Shown: one piece after another, positions 8,584 to 62,388 of the stretch
How positions within the stretch are numbered: position 1 is the first letter of the stretch
Layout of the letters: the number at the start of each line of letters is the position of its first letter
Assembly (NCBI RefSeq): GCF_000013225.1
Contig: NC_007776.1
Location: 2,114,501-2,178,500, forward strand
Source of the DNA: Synechococcus sp. JA-2-3B'a(2-13)
Lineage (GTDB): Bacteria > Cyanobacteriota > Cyanobacteriia > Thermostichales > Thermostichaceae
DNA length: 64,000 bases
Direction of reading: 5' to 3'
Notes under the pieces: generated by a model
Told to the model about the DNA's origin: nothing
The model's input: only the letters and a program-made list of their open reading frames with translations
The model's database searches: none
Translations under genes and position numbers: made by a program

Positions 8584-8640
8584 TGATGACTGCTCAATGG
8601 GTCGAATAGAAAGGGATCCCGTCCCATCTATGGCCCATTG

Positions 8641-8740
8641 TTGCTCCACAACGCTGTCGCGACAGAGCAGCCCCTCTATGATGGACTTACCAGCCAACCC
8701 GGATGGAGTCATCGATATTGCTCCGCAACACTGTCGCGAC
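8641..8740. repeat. Two copies of short dispersed repeat A upstream of the Uma2 gene
   Basis: Two direct copies of a roughly 24-bp unit lie at 8641-8663 and 8717-8740. The core is TTGCTCCGCAACGCTGTCGC, and it recurs at many other places in the window, including inside genes. The stretch between 8584 and 8760 holds no gene I can support. Confidence 0.7.
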
Positions 8741-21654: not shown

Positions 21655-22236
21655 TTGCTGACCCCATCTTCGCCGCCCATGGACAGACCAAAACCCTGGA
21701 TCCTTTCTCGTTCTTGCTTGCTACTGCTTCTTGGCTTGCTTGAGCCTGCTCCGGCTTGGGCCCATGGGGTGGAAGCCTCTCTTCGGGCTGTTCCCGCTTT
21801 TGAGATCGAGGCCCGCTACGATTCTGGGGAACCGATGGGATCCGCCCGGGTGACGGTATTTGCGCCAACGGATCCCACTACCCCTTGGCAGGAGGGACAG
21901 ACGGATGCGCGGGGACGATTTCTGCTGCAGCCGGATCCCAACCTGACGGGCCTCTGGCAGGTGCGGATTCGCCAGGCCGGGCATGGGGTATTGGTCAATG
22001 TGCCGGTGGGCGAGGAGTTCCCTCAGACAGAAGGGATCCCCAGCGCTTCCCCACCCTTTGGGCCTTTGCAGCGGGGGGTTATGGCCGCCTGTGTCATTTG
22101 GGGCTGTCTGGGCACAGCTCTGTTCTTCTCCAGGCCCCGTCAATCTGGTTACGCAGCGGTGGAGAGCCCACCGGTTTCGGGATCTCCAGGGTCAGGAATC
22201 TCAGGCTCCCAGGCTGGCTCCTCTGCTCTGGAGTAG
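21655..22236 (+). CDS. CbiL-like secreted protein of a Ni/Co uptake locus
   Basis: About 190 aa with a signal peptide (LLLLLGLLEPAPAWAHG), a carboxypeptidase-regulatory/CbiL-like beta domain (FEIEARYDSGEPMGSARVTVF and following) and a C-terminal transmembrane segment (VMAACVIWGCLGTALFFS). It lies directly before cbiM, the usual position of CbiL/NikL-type accessory components. The TTG at 21655 has GGAG 9 nt upstream; the ATG at 21679 is an alternative with no SD. The His after the signal cleavage site may bind metal. Confidence 0.72.
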   Translation: MLTPSSPPMDRPKPWILSRSCLLLLLGLLEPAPAWAHGVEASLRAVPAFEIEARYDSGEPMGSARVTVFAPTDPTTPWQEGQTDARGRFLLQPDPNLTGLWQVRIRQAGHGVLVNVPVGEEFPQTEGIPSASPPFGPLQRGVMAACVIWGCLGTALFFSRPRQSGYAAVESPPVSGSPGSGISGSQAGSSALE

Positions 22237-22244
22237 GACTGACC

Positions 22245-22946
22245 ATGCACATCAGCGATGGCATTTTGCCGGCACCGCTTTGGCTAGGGGGTTATGGCAT
22301 CACCGCCCTGATCACCAGCTACAGCTTGCGGCTTCTCCGTCGCGCCAGCGTTGCGGAGCAATGTCCTTGGTGGGAACGGGATCCCCGCCATATTGCTACG
22401 CAACGCTGTCGCGACCAGTTGCCCAAAGCGGCTTTGCTCACGGCTGTCTTTTTTGTGGCCTCTTCGATTCACCTGCCCTTTCCCCCGGCCAGCCTGCATC
22501 TGGTGCTGAACGGGTTGATGGGTCTGATGTTGGGGGCTTTGGCCTATCCGGCGATTGTAGTGGGCTTGTTTTTTCAGGCGGTGGCCTTTGGCCATGGGGG
22601 CCTGACCACATTGGGCATCAACGCCGCCATTATGGGGATCCCGGCGCTCCTGGCCGGTGGGATTTTTCGGGCAGGCCGTCGGGTGATGGGGGCCGGAGTG
22701 TCTGCCTTCTTGGCGGGAGCGGTTGGGGTGGGTCTAGCAGTGCTGTTGTTTTACGGGGTGGTCATGGCTGCTGTGGTTGACGCTGGCAGCGGGATCCTCT
22801 CCACAGAAGCCGGTCGCCTGGCTCTTGGGAGCTTGGTGGTGGCCCACATCCCCCTGATGGTGGTGGAGGGGTTGTTCGCCAGTTGGGTGGTGCTGTTTTT
22901 GCAGCGGGTACAACCGGCGCTGCTGGGAGACTATGGCAAGAGATGA
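22245..22946 (+). CDS. cbiM: Energy-coupling factor Ni/Co transporter S component CbiM
   Basis: Substrate-specific membrane component for cobalt or nickel. It starts MHISDGILPAPLWLGGY, the conserved N-terminus whose Met1-His2 amino end coordinates the metal. Further family motifs are SIHLPFPPASLHLVLNGLMG and GGLTTLGINAAIMGIP. Residues 32-57 are an extra segment encoded by a palindromic repeat insertion (22339-22415). This falls in the first cytoplasmic loop, so function may be preserved. The ATG is 8 nt past the previous stop, and the gene overlaps cbiQ by 14 nt. Confidence 0.9.
   Translation: MHISDGILPAPLWLGGYGITALITSYSLRLLRRASVAEQCPWWERDPRHIATQRCRDQLPKAALLTAVFFVASSIHLPFPPASLHLVLNGLMGLMLGALAYPAIVVGLFFQAVAFGHGGLTTLGINAAIMGIPALLAGGIFRAGRRVMGAGVSAFLAGAVGVGLAVLLFYGVVMAAVVDAGSGILSTEAGRLALGSLVVAHIPLMVVEGLFASWVVLFLQRVQPALLGDYGKR
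22339..22415. repeat. 77-bp palindromic repeat insertion inside cbiM
   Basis: Two inverted copies of dispersed repeat A (22339-22362 and 22392-22415) flank a 29-bp centre. The arms pair almost perfectly over 24 bp. The insertion keeps the reading frame and adds about 25 residues absent from usual CbiM sequences. Confidence 0.75.
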
Positions 22947-23763
22947 AGCCGGCTCAGGGATCCCTTGCTGCTGGCGCGGTCAACAATCCCATCCTCACCC
23001 CTCCAAACCCCTTTCCTGGCTGCACCGGTGGCAACCTCTGCCCAAGGTGCTGGGCCTGATGGCGCTGATGGCGGCTTTCGCCTCGGTGAGGTGCCTGGCC
23101 CTCTTGCCGCTCATCTGGGCGCTGGTGGCTGGACTGTGGAGCCTGTCGGGATTGCCTTGGAGCCTCGGGCTGAGGCGGCTGGCAGCCCCAGGGCTGTTGG
23201 TGGCAGGGTTGATGGGGATCCTACCCTTCTGGGCGGGGGAAACCATCCTGTGGCGCTGGGGATCCCTGGCTCTGCGTTGGGAGGGGCTGCAGATGGCGCT
23301 TCGCATTGGGGGGAGAGGGCTGGCCCTATTTGCCCTCACGATGCTGCTGCTGGAGACCACTCCCACATCGGAACTGTTGGCAGCTTTGCGGGCCCTGGGG
23401 ATCCCAGACCTCCTGCTGGAACTGGCCTGGCTCACCCAGCGCTATTTGCAGGAGGTGGCCGCTCAGTGGCAGCAGATGCAACGGGCAGCCCGGCTGAGGG
23501 GTTGGCGACCGCGGGGATCCCTGTGGCGTCCTGGGCCGTCTCTAAGACAAGATCTGCCCTTTCTGGCCGCTTCGGTGGGCACCCTGTTGGTTCGCAGCTA
23601 CGAGCGCTCGCAGAGGGTTTATCAGGCTTTGCGCCTGCGGGGCTATGGACGGGCACCTCTGTTTTCGACGGCGGCTGGCGGGGATCCCTACAGTTGGGCG
23701 GCCACCGCGTTGGCCGTGGCTACGGCTCTATTGCTCCGCAACGCTGATGCGGCCCTCAACTAG
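22933..23763 (+). CDS. cbiQ: Energy-coupling factor transporter T component CbiQ
   Basis: 276-aa membrane protein coupling the S component to ATPases. Hydrophobic segments run from [20 protein letters not shown] onward. The cytoplasmic ARG-type coupling motifs appear as [12 protein letters not shown] and [18 protein letters not shown] lies before the ATG. The cbiO ATPase is not next to it; rimO follows instead. The last codons read through a copy of dispersed repeat A (23730-23752), which supplies the C-terminus [11 protein letters not shown]. Confidence 0.88.
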
Positions 23764-23809: not shown

Positions 23810-25231
23810 ATGAATGGGTTAGAAGCGACCGTCTCCAGTTTCCCATCCGTTAAGGACTCCGTCCCGCTTACGCGAACAGCGGTGCAGCGTACAAAGGCGT
23901 CGGTTGCCGTTTTACACCTGGGCTGCGAGAAAAACCGGGTGGACACCGAGCACATGCTGGGCCTGCTGGCCCAAGCGGGCTACCGGGTGGATGGGGACGA
24001 AGAGAGCGCTAACTATGTGATTGTCAACACCTGTAGCTTCATCGAGGCAGCGCGACGGGAGTCGGTCAGTACCCTGATGGAGCTGGCGGTACAAGGCAAA
24101 AAGATCATCATTGCCGGCTGCTTGGCGCAACACTTCCAGGAGGAGCTGCTGCAGGAGATCCCGGAGGCGGTGGCTATCGTGGGTACGGGCGACTATCACC
24201 AGATCGTCCAAATCATCGAGCGGGTGGAGCGGGGAGAGCGGGTCAATGCCGTTACTTCTAGCCTGGATTACATTGCCGACGAGACCGTACCTCGCTATCG
24301 CACCACCCACGCGCCGGTGGCCTACCTGCGGGTAGCCGAGGGCTGTAACTACCGCTGCTCTTTCTGCATCATCCCCCACTTGCGGGGCGACCAACGCTCT
24401 CGCTCCATCGAGTCGATCCTACGGGAAGCAGAACAGCTGGCCGAAGAGGGGGTGCAGGAGCTGATTTTAATTTCCCAGATCACCACCCACTACGGGATCG
24501 ATCTCTACGGGGAGCCGCGGCTGGCAGATCTCATTCGCGCCCTGGGCAAGATCCCCATTCCCTGGATCCGCATGCTCTACGCCTACCCCACCGGCGTCAC
24601 GCCTGCAGTGGTGGAGGCCATCCAAGAAACTCCCAATTTCTTGCCTTACCTGGATTTGCCCCTACAGCACAGCCATCCGCAGATCCTCAAGGCCATGAAT
24701 CGCCCCTGGCAAGGGCAGGTCAACGACCGGGTGATCGAGCGGCTGCGCCAGGCGTTGCCCAATGCCGTGCTGCGCACCAGCTTTATCGTCGGCTTTCCTG
24801 GGGAGACGGAGGAGCACTTCCAGCATCTACTAGACTTTGTCCAGCGCCATCAGTTTGACCATGTGGGGGTGTTTACCTTTTCTCCCGAAGAGGGCACCCC
24901 TGCCTACCACCTCCCCCATCAGGTTCCAGAGGCCGTCAAACAGGAGCGCCGTGCCCGCCTGATGCAGGTGCAGCAGGGGATCACCTTCCGCCGCAACCGC
25001 GAGCAGGTAGGCCGGGTGGTTCCCGTTCTCTTGGAGCAGGAAAACCCCAGAACCGGCGAGTGGATTGGCCGTTCCCCCCGCTTTGCCCCCGAGGTGGATG
25101 GAGTGGTGTATGTGCAGGGGCAGGGATCCCTGGGATCCCTGGTGCCGGTGCAGATCACCCGCGCTGAGCCCTATGATCTCTTTGGCCAAGTGGTGGCAGC
25201 GCCGGAGGGTTTTAGCTGGAGCGGGCGGTAG
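23810..25231 (+). CDS. rimO: Ribosomal protein uS12 methylthiotransferase RimO
   Basis: Radical-SAM enzyme that methylthiolates Asp88 of ribosomal protein S12, 473 aa. The N-terminal UPF0004 domain begins [20 protein letters not shown]; the radical-SAM cluster motif is [15 protein letters not shown]; a TRAM domain forms the C-terminus. The first about 30 residues are poorly conserved and overlap a copy of dispersed repeat B (23854-23877). The ATG at 23810 is the only sensible start. Confidence 0.94.
23854..23877. repeat. Dispersed repeat B within rimO N-terminus
   Basis: Inverse copy of the unit whose core is GTTCGCGTTGGCGGAACGGA. It is seen twice more at 34870-34897 and 34966-34993 and partially near 10329. 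It encodes the variable residues [10 protein letters not shown] in RimO. Confidence 0.6.
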
Positions 25232-25281: not shown

Positions 25282-25998
25282 ATGACTACCCTTCGCGTCA
25301 GCGGGACCGAGTCTTTAGATGATCTGAAACAAGCAGCAGCCCGAGCCGCGGTTCAAAAGGTGCAGTCGGGGATGGTGGTGGGGCTGGGCACGGGATCCAC
25401 AGCCGCCTTTGCCGTGAGCGCCCTAGCAGAGCGGATGCAAACCGAAGGTCTCCAGATTATCGGCGTGCCTACCTCGGAGCGCACGGCTGAACAGGCCCGC
25501 TCCCTGGGGATCCCGCTGGCTACCCTAGAAGAGCAGCCGCGCCTGGATCTGGCCATCGATGGGGCCGACGAGATTGAAGTGGGATCCCTGAACCTGATCA
25601 AAGGGGCAGGAGGGGCCCTGTTGCGGGAAAAGTTGGTGGAGGCCAGCGCTGCCGAGCTGATCATCATCGCCGATGCCTCTAAAAAAGTCGCGCAGTTGGG
25701 CATTCGCTTCCCGGTGCCGGTAGAGGTGGTGCGCTTTGGCTGGAAAACCACCTTGGCGCGGGTAGAGGCTCTGGGGTGCACAGCCACCTTACGGCGGAAT
25801 GCCAACGGGGATCCCTACTTGACGGACGAGCAGCACTACATCCTCGACTGCCAATTCGGCCCCATGGCGGATCCTGCCAAGATCGCCGATCAACTCAAGG
25901 GGACGGTGGGGGTTGTGGAACATGGCCTGTTCATCGGCATGGCCAAAGAGGCAATCATCGCCCTCCCGACTGGGATCGAAACGCTGCAACCCAGCTGA
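25282..25998 (+). CDS. rpiA: Ribose-5-phosphate isomerase A
   Basis: Interconverts ribose 5-phosphate and ribulose 5-phosphate in the Calvin and pentose-phosphate cycles, 238 aa. Motifs are GLGTGSTAAF, DLAIDGADEI and LIKGAGGALLREK. The ATG at 25282 follows GGAGAGGAGC; a GTG at 25234 would add 16 residues not typical of the family. It follows rimO by 50 bp on the same strand. Confidence 0.95.
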   Translation: MTTLRVSGTESLDDLKQAAARAAVQKVQSGMVVGLGTGSTAAFAVSALAERMQTEGLQIIGVPTSERTAEQARSLGIPLATLEEQPRLDLAIDGADEIEVGSLNLIKGAGGALLREKLVEASAAELIIIADASKKVAQLGIRFPVPVEVVRFGWKTTLARVEALGCTATLRRNANGDPYLTDEQHYILDCQFGPMADPAKIADQLKGTVGVVEHGLFIGMAKEAIIALPTGIETLQPS

Positions 25999-31899: not shown

Positions 31900-32887
31900 C
31901 CTGCTTCCAGATCTGCTCCGGCAAATCCTCAGCTTCGCAGTCCAGCCACAGGGCCACGCATCGACCCCTTCCCGACAGGGTGCCGTAGGCATGGCCCTTT
32001 TGGATCCCCAGCATGGCTCGAAACCAAGTCATCTGCCGCTTGGCAAATTGGCGGGTGCGCCGCACAATCAGGGGTTGCAGTTCGGCTTCCGGGATCCGCC
32101 CCTCCAGGTAAGCGCCGATCTCCGCATAGCCCAAGGTCTGCAAGAGGGGTAAGTCTGGCCCGTAGCGCTCCCGCAGGGTTTTCACCTCCTCGATCCACCC
32201 CCGCTCCATCATCTCCGCCGTGCGCCGGGCAATGCGTTGTTCCAAACGGGGCATTGGGCAGCGCAGCCCCAGGATCAAGATGGGGTAATGGGGGGGATGA
32301 GCCCGCCTTAGGCTGGAAGCCGGCTTCCCGGTGGTGTAAACGATCTCCAAAGCCCGCAGCGTGCGCACCGCGTCATGGGGATGAATGTGCTGGGCGGCAA
32401 CGGGATCCAACTGCTGCAGCCAGGCGTAGCGGATCTCAGGGGGCCAAGTTTCCAGTTGTCTTCTCAGTTGGGGCTGCGGGGGTACAGCAGGGATCCCTAG
32501 GCCAGCAGTCACCGATTGGATGTAGAGACCGGTGCCCCCCACCAAGATGGGAGTCTGTCCCTGCCGATGGGCCTCGGCGATGCGGGCTTGGGCCGCCTGC
32601 TGAAACTCAGCCACCGTGTAGGTGTGGCAGGGATCAACAATGTCGATCAACTCGTGGGGCCAAAGGGCCTGCTCGGCGGGGGTAGGCTTGGCTGTGCCGA
32701 TGTCGAACTCGCGGTAGACCTGGCGAGAGTCCGCATTCAACAACGGGGATCCCAGCCGTTGGGCCAAAAGCAGTGCCTGTCGAGATTTCCCGGTGGCCGT
32801 GGGGCCGGCAATGACGATCAATCCCGGCCATTCTGTCCGGTCAGAAGCTGCTGCAGCGGGAATGCCATTCTCGAGGGTAATGCGCAT
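31823..32887 (-). CDS. miaA: tRNA dimethylallyltransferase MiaA
   Basis: Transfers a dimethylallyl group to A37 of tRNAs reading UNN codons, 354 aa. P-loop [12 protein letters not shown], followed by [19 protein letters not shown] and the catalytic-region [12 protein letters not shown]. The last 77 nt overlap the 3' end of menD on the opposite strand, so its about 25 C-terminal residues are probably non-essential. Confidence 0.94.
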
Positions 32888-34831: not shown

Positions 34832-35143
34832 TCAAGGCTCCAGGGGGGACGTGGACTCTCGCGACAGGATCCCGTTCGCGTTGGCGGAACGGAGTCCTTT
34901 CAAGCTCGCATCGCCGGGCCACAGACCCTGCAAGACTTGGGCAACACGGTGCCAGGGATCCAGCCGTTCCGTTCGCGTTGGCGGGACGGAGCCCTTGCTG
35001 CTTTGAGGCTCTGGAGAAGACTGCTCAGAGGGAGCGGGATCCCTTTCTTCCAACTGCAGAGAAAGCTGCTGCAACTGCATGTAGATGCTGTTCACGGCCA
35101 GCATGGCCAAGACCGTGCCAAAAAACTTGGTGCGGGATCCCAT
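34832..35143 (-). CDS. Hypothetical small membrane protein carrying repeat-derived tail
   Basis: 103 aa. The first about 25 residues (MGSRTKFFGTVLAMLAVNSI) look like a signal anchor. The C-terminal half translates two copies of dispersed repeat B and has low-complexity character. It may be a small anchored protein extended by repeats, or a spurious frame. Confidence 0.4.
   Translation of the reverse strand: MGSRTKFFGTVLAMLAVNSIYMQLQQLSLQLEERDPAPSEQSSPEPQSSKGSVPPTRTERLDPWHRVAQVLQGLWPGDASLKGLRSANANGILSRESTSPLEP
34870..34993. repeat. Two direct copies of dispersed repeat B
   Basis: Copies at 34870-34897 and 34966-34993 share CGTTCGCGTTGGCGG and the following ACGGAG. A third lies in rimO and a partial one near 10329. 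Confidence 0.7.
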
Positions 35144-62080: not shown

Positions 62081-62388
62081 TATGAGGGCTCCATTTACAG
62101 AGGTTGACAGGTCTCAGCAAGGCCGGAAAGGTTCCAGGCCAAGAGCAGAGATAGTGTGGCGCAATCGCCTGCGGTGAAAGCTCGCCGGAAACCCACCCGA
62201 CCGGTCGCGAAAGCGGGCCGGAGGCCTTTCGCGGAAGCGGACCGGAGGCCTTGTTTTTGCATGGGATCCCTGTTTTTGCATGGGATCCCTTGACCACTGG
62301 GGATCTGAACCCCATCTTGTTACAGAAATTTAGAATCGTTACAATGAGTTAGAATCTTTGCTCATCTTTGCATCGCAGGTTTTATCCT
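62081..62388. other. Intergenic region with tandem repeats, potA-doxX
   Basis: About 300 bp between divergent genes. It contains two tandem duplications: a 24-bp unit at 62205-62252 and a 19-bp unit at 62252-62289. AT-rich sequence near 62325-62360 may hold the promoter of the DoxX gene. Confidence 0.5.
62205..62289. repeat. Two adjacent tandem duplications
   Basis: The 24-bp unit is GAAAGCGG(G/A)CCGGAGGCCTT-like and present twice with three differences. It is followed directly by two exact copies of the 19-bp TGTTTTTGCATGGGATCCC. Confidence 0.85.

Follow-up and report, generated by a model that had tools for sequence, protein, structure and literature searches.

Cyanobacterial small dispersed repeats (SDRs) are the closest known kind of element to the one described here. 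Elhai et al. are said to have reported in 2008 that the Nostoc repeats SDR4, SDR5 and SDR6 are 20-odd nt long and show compensatory secondary structure, nesting and recent mobility, and to have proposed an RNA copy followed by reverse transcription for the Nostoc SDRs. The unit analyzed here resembles them in being a dispersed repeat of 24 nt net (the SDR range is 21-27 nt), with compensatory stems, presence or absence between strains (31 events) and nested insertions (10 of 11 copies of the subfamily that we call T-type). In contrast, it probably has another sequence, its net length is fixed at 24 bp, its first loop is mostly GNNA, and it is frequent in frame within genes. SDR5 inserts between nucleotides 3 and 4 of HIP1, GCG^ATCGC (PMC4390886), and the G^A junction is the same as in the CYG^A target of the present unit, although that target is not HIP1. 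HIP1 itself is nearly absent from these hot-spring genomes (PMC4390886). SDR5-like copies embedded in HIP1 were observed in genome G098 (L148, L151), where they read GCG-TA[GGCgtaGCC]C[GCCgtaGGC]-ATCGC, that is, two abutting GNA mini-hairpins.

The window that we analyzed is a stretch of 64,000 nucleotides (C1:2114501-2178500) of the G000 genome, which comprises 3,046,682 bp. At 22245..22946, on the plus strand, it carries cbiM, the host gene of the repeat, which encodes the substrate-specific subunit of a cobalt ECF transporter (PF01891, E 5.9e-43; NF004906, 332 bits, over the cut-off) and is homologous across relatives. The gene upstream (21655-22236) resembles a NikL-type ECF accessory subunit, with an NF058648 score of 28 bits that is below the cut-off. 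Within cbiM, an inverted repeat is formed by two arms of 24 nt each, at 22339-22362 and 22392-22415, which lie 29 nt apart and match at 22 of 24 positions (92% complementary). The reading frame stays open through both units. Each arm is a copy of a dispersed repeat that has 60 matches in the genome with up to 3 mismatches, while the control has 0. An earlier note had correctly recognized two inverted copies of a dispersed repeat with this spacing in cbiM coding DNA; it had also taken them for the ends of a single 77-bp palindromic, MITE-like unit to which the 29-bp centre belonged, and this part does not agree with what relatives of the strain carry.

The left 24/25-nt unit (GTCGCGCCAGCGTTGCGGAGCAATG; 22339..22363, plus strand) is of the TTGC/GCAA stem subfamily, scores 35.2 bits with our covariance model R1 (E 5e-7) and folds into two abutting hairpins with DNA parameters. 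The right 24/25-nt unit (22391..22415, minus strand) reads GTCGCGACAGCGTTGCGTAGCAATA on that strand and scores 36.9 bits (E 1.9e-7). Each adds eight codons, and each is missing from G001, G002, G003 and G005. The DNA between them (22364..22390, plus strand), the supposed centre, is native cbiM: GGTGGGAACGGGATCCCCGCC aligns with GGTTGGAAAAGGATCCCCGCC of G001, 18 of 21 positions in the core being identical, and it encodes a DP motif that is conserved in the family alignment of cyanobacterial CbiM. Cutting the two 24-bp units from cbiM leaves LLRPWWERDPRHQLPK, compared with LLQRLEKDPRRQLPK in the insertion-free G001, the former being longer by one codon. Since the centre is native and the relatives have empty sites, we conclude that two single units were inserted separately and in opposite orientation. 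The cbiM feature thus very probably arose when a 24-bp unit was inserted twice, independently, on either side of about 27 bp of native DNA.

Insertion of one 77-bp MITE- or REPIN-like palindrome in a single step would explain why two inverted copies are closely spaced, and one known class of mobile elements, the REPINs, consists of inverted REP doublets (PMC3116915). At cbiM this explanation is rejected by the empty sites of the relatives, and the centre is native. Elsewhere, single units insert alone: G004 has its own in-frame 24-bp unit in cbiQ (C67:51923-51947), which is missing from five other genomes, and lone insertions are found at C67:65184 of G004 and at other sites. Neighbors lying within 150 bp of each other (n = 75) are direct in 45 cases and inverted in 30, with variable spacing; variable spacing and mostly direct pairs rule out a REPIN or MITE unit here. 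A second close inverted pair, at C67:55645/55679 of G004, brings together two units of different stem subfamily with 9-10 bp of native DNA between them, and neither terminal inverted repeats nor target-site duplications were found. MITEs and the present unit are alike in being non-autonomous, dispersed and non-coding, but the unit lacks the terminal inverted repeats and target-site duplication of MITEs and is far shorter. Altogether, we consider a one-step 77-bp insertion highly improbable.

In the protein, about 17 residues are extra when compared with unit-free relatives, and 16 of these come from the two 24-bp units. The frame is unbroken, as the earlier note had stated, while its figure of about 25 added residues was too high. 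Protein and DNA alignments place the extra loop only in G000 and its closest relative G004; it is absent from the CbiM of G001, G002, G003 and G005 and from the other cyanobacterial CbiM proteins that were aligned, and the conservation in distant CbiM proteins that would have spoken against an insertion was not seen. The loop is predicted to connect the first hydrophobic helix with the second; CbiM relatives of known structure are 5x3x and 4m58. Among the 11 differences between the G000 and G004 proteins, 4 are located in the eight residues of the left unit (Fisher p 1.7e-4), and judged by these substitutions the left insert is evolving fast, as expected of a free loop. Selection of the added loop for a function in CbiM would be compatible with the retention of both insertions in G000 and G004 and with the open frame. 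This idea is very hard to reconcile with the rapid change of the left insert and with the insertion of the same unit into many other genes, and we give it almost no weight. Most likely, the units have a neutral effect on CbiM and lengthen the loop that joins its first and second membrane helices. The description of the element as adapted to coding sequence is, likewise, weak: although its length is divisible by three and it is open in most readings, the left insert changes fast. For the transporter CbiM the finding is ordinary; for mobile DNA it is interesting.

The unit has the consensus N-T-[CGC-GNNA-GCG]-[NNNC-G(G/T)A-GNNN]-Y-N, which corresponds to a pair of abutting mini-hairpins. Searching exactly for this dual hairpin, with any stem allowed, gave 136 matches and none in the control; the first stem was CGC in 123 of them, CCC in 11 and CAC in 2. 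TTGC, GGAC, GTGC, GGCC, GCGC, TCGC, TGCC and AGCC are among the second stems. Variation in both stems is compensatory. When only the constant part was required, 142 copies were recovered with 13 different stems, and 116 of these copies keep all four Watson-Crick pairs of the second stem; the mean number of pairs is 3.78, against 2.35 for shuffled arms (shuffled maximum 2.64). In alignment A4 all cells pair and 49 have changes on both sides; as its rows were picked with intact stems, the constant-part test on 142 copies is the unbiased one.

DNA energy parameters give the two-hairpin fold for all six units tested, while RNA parameters give it for three of the six, with neither cbiM copy among them. 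The two loops, cGNNAg and cGNAg, are both closed by C-G, and cGNNAg is a stable DNA tetraloop. A purine occupies the third position of the first loop in only 18%, and the loop is thus not the GNRA loop of RNA. As for the second loop, triloops of the d(GNA) type, when closed by a C-G pair, are known as a stable motif in DNA (PMC5815330). The unit ends are not complementary and form no terminal inverted repeats, and an Rfam search with the unit returned nothing above the gathering threshold. The unit is non-coding and, at 24 bp, among the smallest known mobile elements, of which it is an unusually clear case.

A looser pattern of the arms has 265 matches in the G000 genome and 4 in the control. 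Copies with up to 2 mismatches number 174 in G000, 244 in G004, 107 in G005, 34 in G001, 28 in G002, 13 in G003, 6 in G007 and 1 in G006, and the same search found none in the remaining five genomes searched. With R1, among the best candidates listed (at most about 55 per genome), many copies are present in all six members of the genus; with the same limit on the candidates scored, smaller numbers were obtained from some cyanobacteria outside the genus, family f32 and genome G139 in particular. The units form a genus-wide superfamily of dual mini-hairpins. In G003, a relative of this dual mini-hairpin has a GTA triloop in each hairpin (GGCgtaGCC TGCCgtaGGCA; L149, L152, L153, L154); it is also found in the f32 genome G115, where three adjacent GNA mini-hairpins stand in a row at about 739-775 of L150.

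In the window, the minus strand carries a unit with a GGAC/GTCC stem at 23852..23876 (R1 37.8 bits, E 1.1e-7), a degraded unit close to the 3' end of cbiQ, with a TTGC/GCAA stem, at 23729..23753 (22.3 bits, E 9e-4) and two further members of the family that are direct neighbors, at 8639..8663 (24.4 bits) and 8716..8740 (30.9 bits). On the plus strand, family members were located at 25292..25316 (24.0 bits), 34875..34899 (20.5 bits) and 34972..34996 (23.6 bits), and a tandem pair with GGCC-type stems and a 24-bp period occupies 62204..62252 (37.4 and 18.0 bits). The commonest words of the whole window are GGGATCCC and its extensions, the HIP1 substitute of these strains (cf. PMC4390886).

Units have moved recently, singly and with precise ends. 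We sampled 652 kb of G000 (about 21% of the genome) and 699 kb of G004, of which 533 kb could be aligned in 99 blocks. Clean indels between the two genomes peak at exactly 24 bp, with 24 events, 21 of which contain a 4-bp stem and a GNA loop. At neighboring lengths there are 7 indels of 21 bp, 2 of 25 bp and 2 of 27 bp, and none of 22, 23 or 26 bp in the 533-kb alignment. Altogether, 31 events of unit presence or absence were scored, and in 29 of them the flanks are good. In place of a single base in the empty allele, the occupied one carries 25 nt, a net gain of 24; in 25 of the 29 events, the base that is exchanged is A (background 0.205, p 6e-14). Upstream of the insertion, position -3 is C in 21/29, position -2 a pyrimidine in 27/29 and position -1 G in 17/29. 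The unit thus prefers CYG^A as its target, in arbitrary context, and the A is swapped for a 25-nt unit. Insertion of 24 nt before the A and replacement of the A by 25 nt are told apart only statistically, because the last base of the unit is A in 12/29 events; outgroups do not always have A at the insertion site. None of the 31 empty sites shows a target-site duplication. No mutual information was detected between the variable loop bases and the flanks, and a model in which the loop NN acts as a guide dictating the target failed. Hairpin-loop targeting in general fared no better, as flank complementarity equals that of shuffled pairs and the target flanks are not hairpins.

Units also occur nested and in arrays. 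Of 11 T-type units, with stems CCC/GGG and TGCC/GGCA, 10 are nested within another unit's loop, even though such loops provide only about 1.8% of CGGA sites. They can be regarded as parasitizing another parasite; the copy in the window (31969..31993, plus strand; R1 33.6 bits) is the only T-type copy found un-nested. Tandem arrays have a period of 24 bp, and one of 14 units starts at C1:2805418 of G000 (L162, C1:2805000-2806200). Array sizes (L162, L163, L166, L165) are 14, 6 and 4 units in G000 and at least 11 in G005, and the three G000 arrays have their flanks in common but not their number of units. Such exact 24-bp-period arrays, the 14-unit one included, fit local growth, as would be expected if host template switching or replication slippage made the copies with no dedicated enzyme. 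As a general mechanism we give this little credence, since dispersed copies at unrelated sites, the CYG^A target and the exact ends would all be left unexplained by it.

On landing in a gene, the unit adds exactly eight amino acids and the frame is kept. Genes were called with a simple hexamer gene finder, and the ORFs are accordingly predicted ones. Of 205 unique copies, 91 lie in predicted ORFs, compared with 78% at random; copies in predicted genes are in sense orientation in 49 cases and in the opposite orientation in 42, and this lack of bias argues against insertion at the mRNA level. Recent insertions fall in predicted ORFs in 21/31 cases, which supports, for the whole family, the view of a mobile DNA that tolerates coding sequence. 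Shared copies do so in 21/34 cases; selection against genic copies was considered and set aside, as recent and shared copies show no difference. Rickettsia palindromic elements (RPEs) insert in frame into genes, are translated and measure about 150 bp (PMC10969869). In-frame insertion into protein genes is what the present unit has in common with them, but it has 24 bp instead of about 150 and belongs to another group of organisms. We know of no dual mini-hairpin architecture in RPEs.

Two SDR-like insertions at cbiM, together with a unit family that moves by copying of single-stranded DNA (ssDNA) with an enzyme acting in trans, would be the best explanation overall, and we consider it likely. 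In our model, the unit would be copied as a short single strand in which both loops, with their C-G closure, could fold as DNA, and the enzyme would be supplied in trans, a Y1/IS200-type ssDNA transposase being the best candidate. A route through RNA and a host reverse transcriptase is disfavored. For the ssDNA step taken by itself, we see about even chances.

The RNA alternative holds that single units move via a reverse-transcribed RNA copy, and the compensatory stems are equally compatible with RNA. No reverse transcriptase (RVT_1, PF00078), however, was found in any of the six genus genomes, while positive controls were detected; the loops match stable DNA loops better than GNRA; and units inside genes lack orientation bias. 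The lack of a reverse transcriptase in the genus and the DNA-type loops favor an ssDNA route over one through RNA, which we regard as improbable. GC skew is weak in the sampled stretches, too weak for reading a replication-strand bias.

Under the ssDNA route, the units might be mobilized in trans by a Y1 (IS200/IS605) TnpA whose 3' flank carries units. IS200-type Y1 transposases are present in 6/6 genus genomes, and enzymes of the IS200/IS605 group bind ssDNA hairpins of 20-25 nt (PMC6006769). In the high-copy genomes G000, G004 and G005, the Y1 domain is followed by R1 matches no more than about 110 bp downstream at 6/9 loci, and the loci examined in the low-copy genomes G001, G002 and G003 have no such matches. 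Against this proposal, the units seem to be inserted into the right-end region of the IS and not to be IS ends (L170 compared with L173), the IS copies are mutually related, a guide tetranucleotide was not seen, and in G004 those Y1 genes that lie near units contain stops. Nor does the number of Y1 genes track that of units: G001 has 19 Y1 matches and few units, while G000 has one intact Y1. As units are inserted in IS right ends and Y1 numbers do not follow them, the association stays a lead, and the IS may be a mere landing place; we hold mobilization by such a TnpA to be possible but rather unlikely.

The end hairpins of IS200/IS605 and the present unit have in common the lack of target duplication, a sequence-preferred target and ssDNA hairpins. 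In contrast to those elements, the unit shows no IS608-like guide covariation between loop and flank and has no coding capacity, and the whole of it has the length of one IS end hairpin. REPs and REPINs, like our units, are short high-copy hairpins, some of them near Y1 transposase genes. However, RAYT-linked REPs have a GTAG/CGTC tag that the unit lacks, and a single stem in place of its two mini-hairpins; and where the REPIN is a fixed-spacing inverted doublet, the mobile unit here is a single copy that is common inside genes. In the comparison with RAYTs, Y1 genes do have units at their 3' flank, and these appear to be inserted there. As the identity of the unit, REP/REPIN, MITE and RPE were each rejected, since each fails a tested defining feature.

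Separately, units were seen to cluster just downstream of Y1 genes in three unit-rich genomes (L167, L169, L170, L171, L175, L179).

More tentatively, and with somewhat less than even confidence, we hypothesize that the element is a 24/25-nt ssDNA unit, possibly the smallest of its kind, for which two extra-stable DNA mini-hairpins would suffice. Such a unit would swap with the one A of CYGA without reverse transcription, its length of 24 would preadapt it to genes, and the T-type would be parasitic on it.

As to how gene-less elements of about 20-25 nt get from place to place, a close pair of genomes with dozens of clean empty sites, together with exact ends, the CYG^A target, strong covariation and no detectable reverse transcriptase, makes the choice between RNA and ssDNA directly testable. 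For their hosts, the units are a steady source of eight-codon protein insertions in a hot-spring cyanobacterial lineage.
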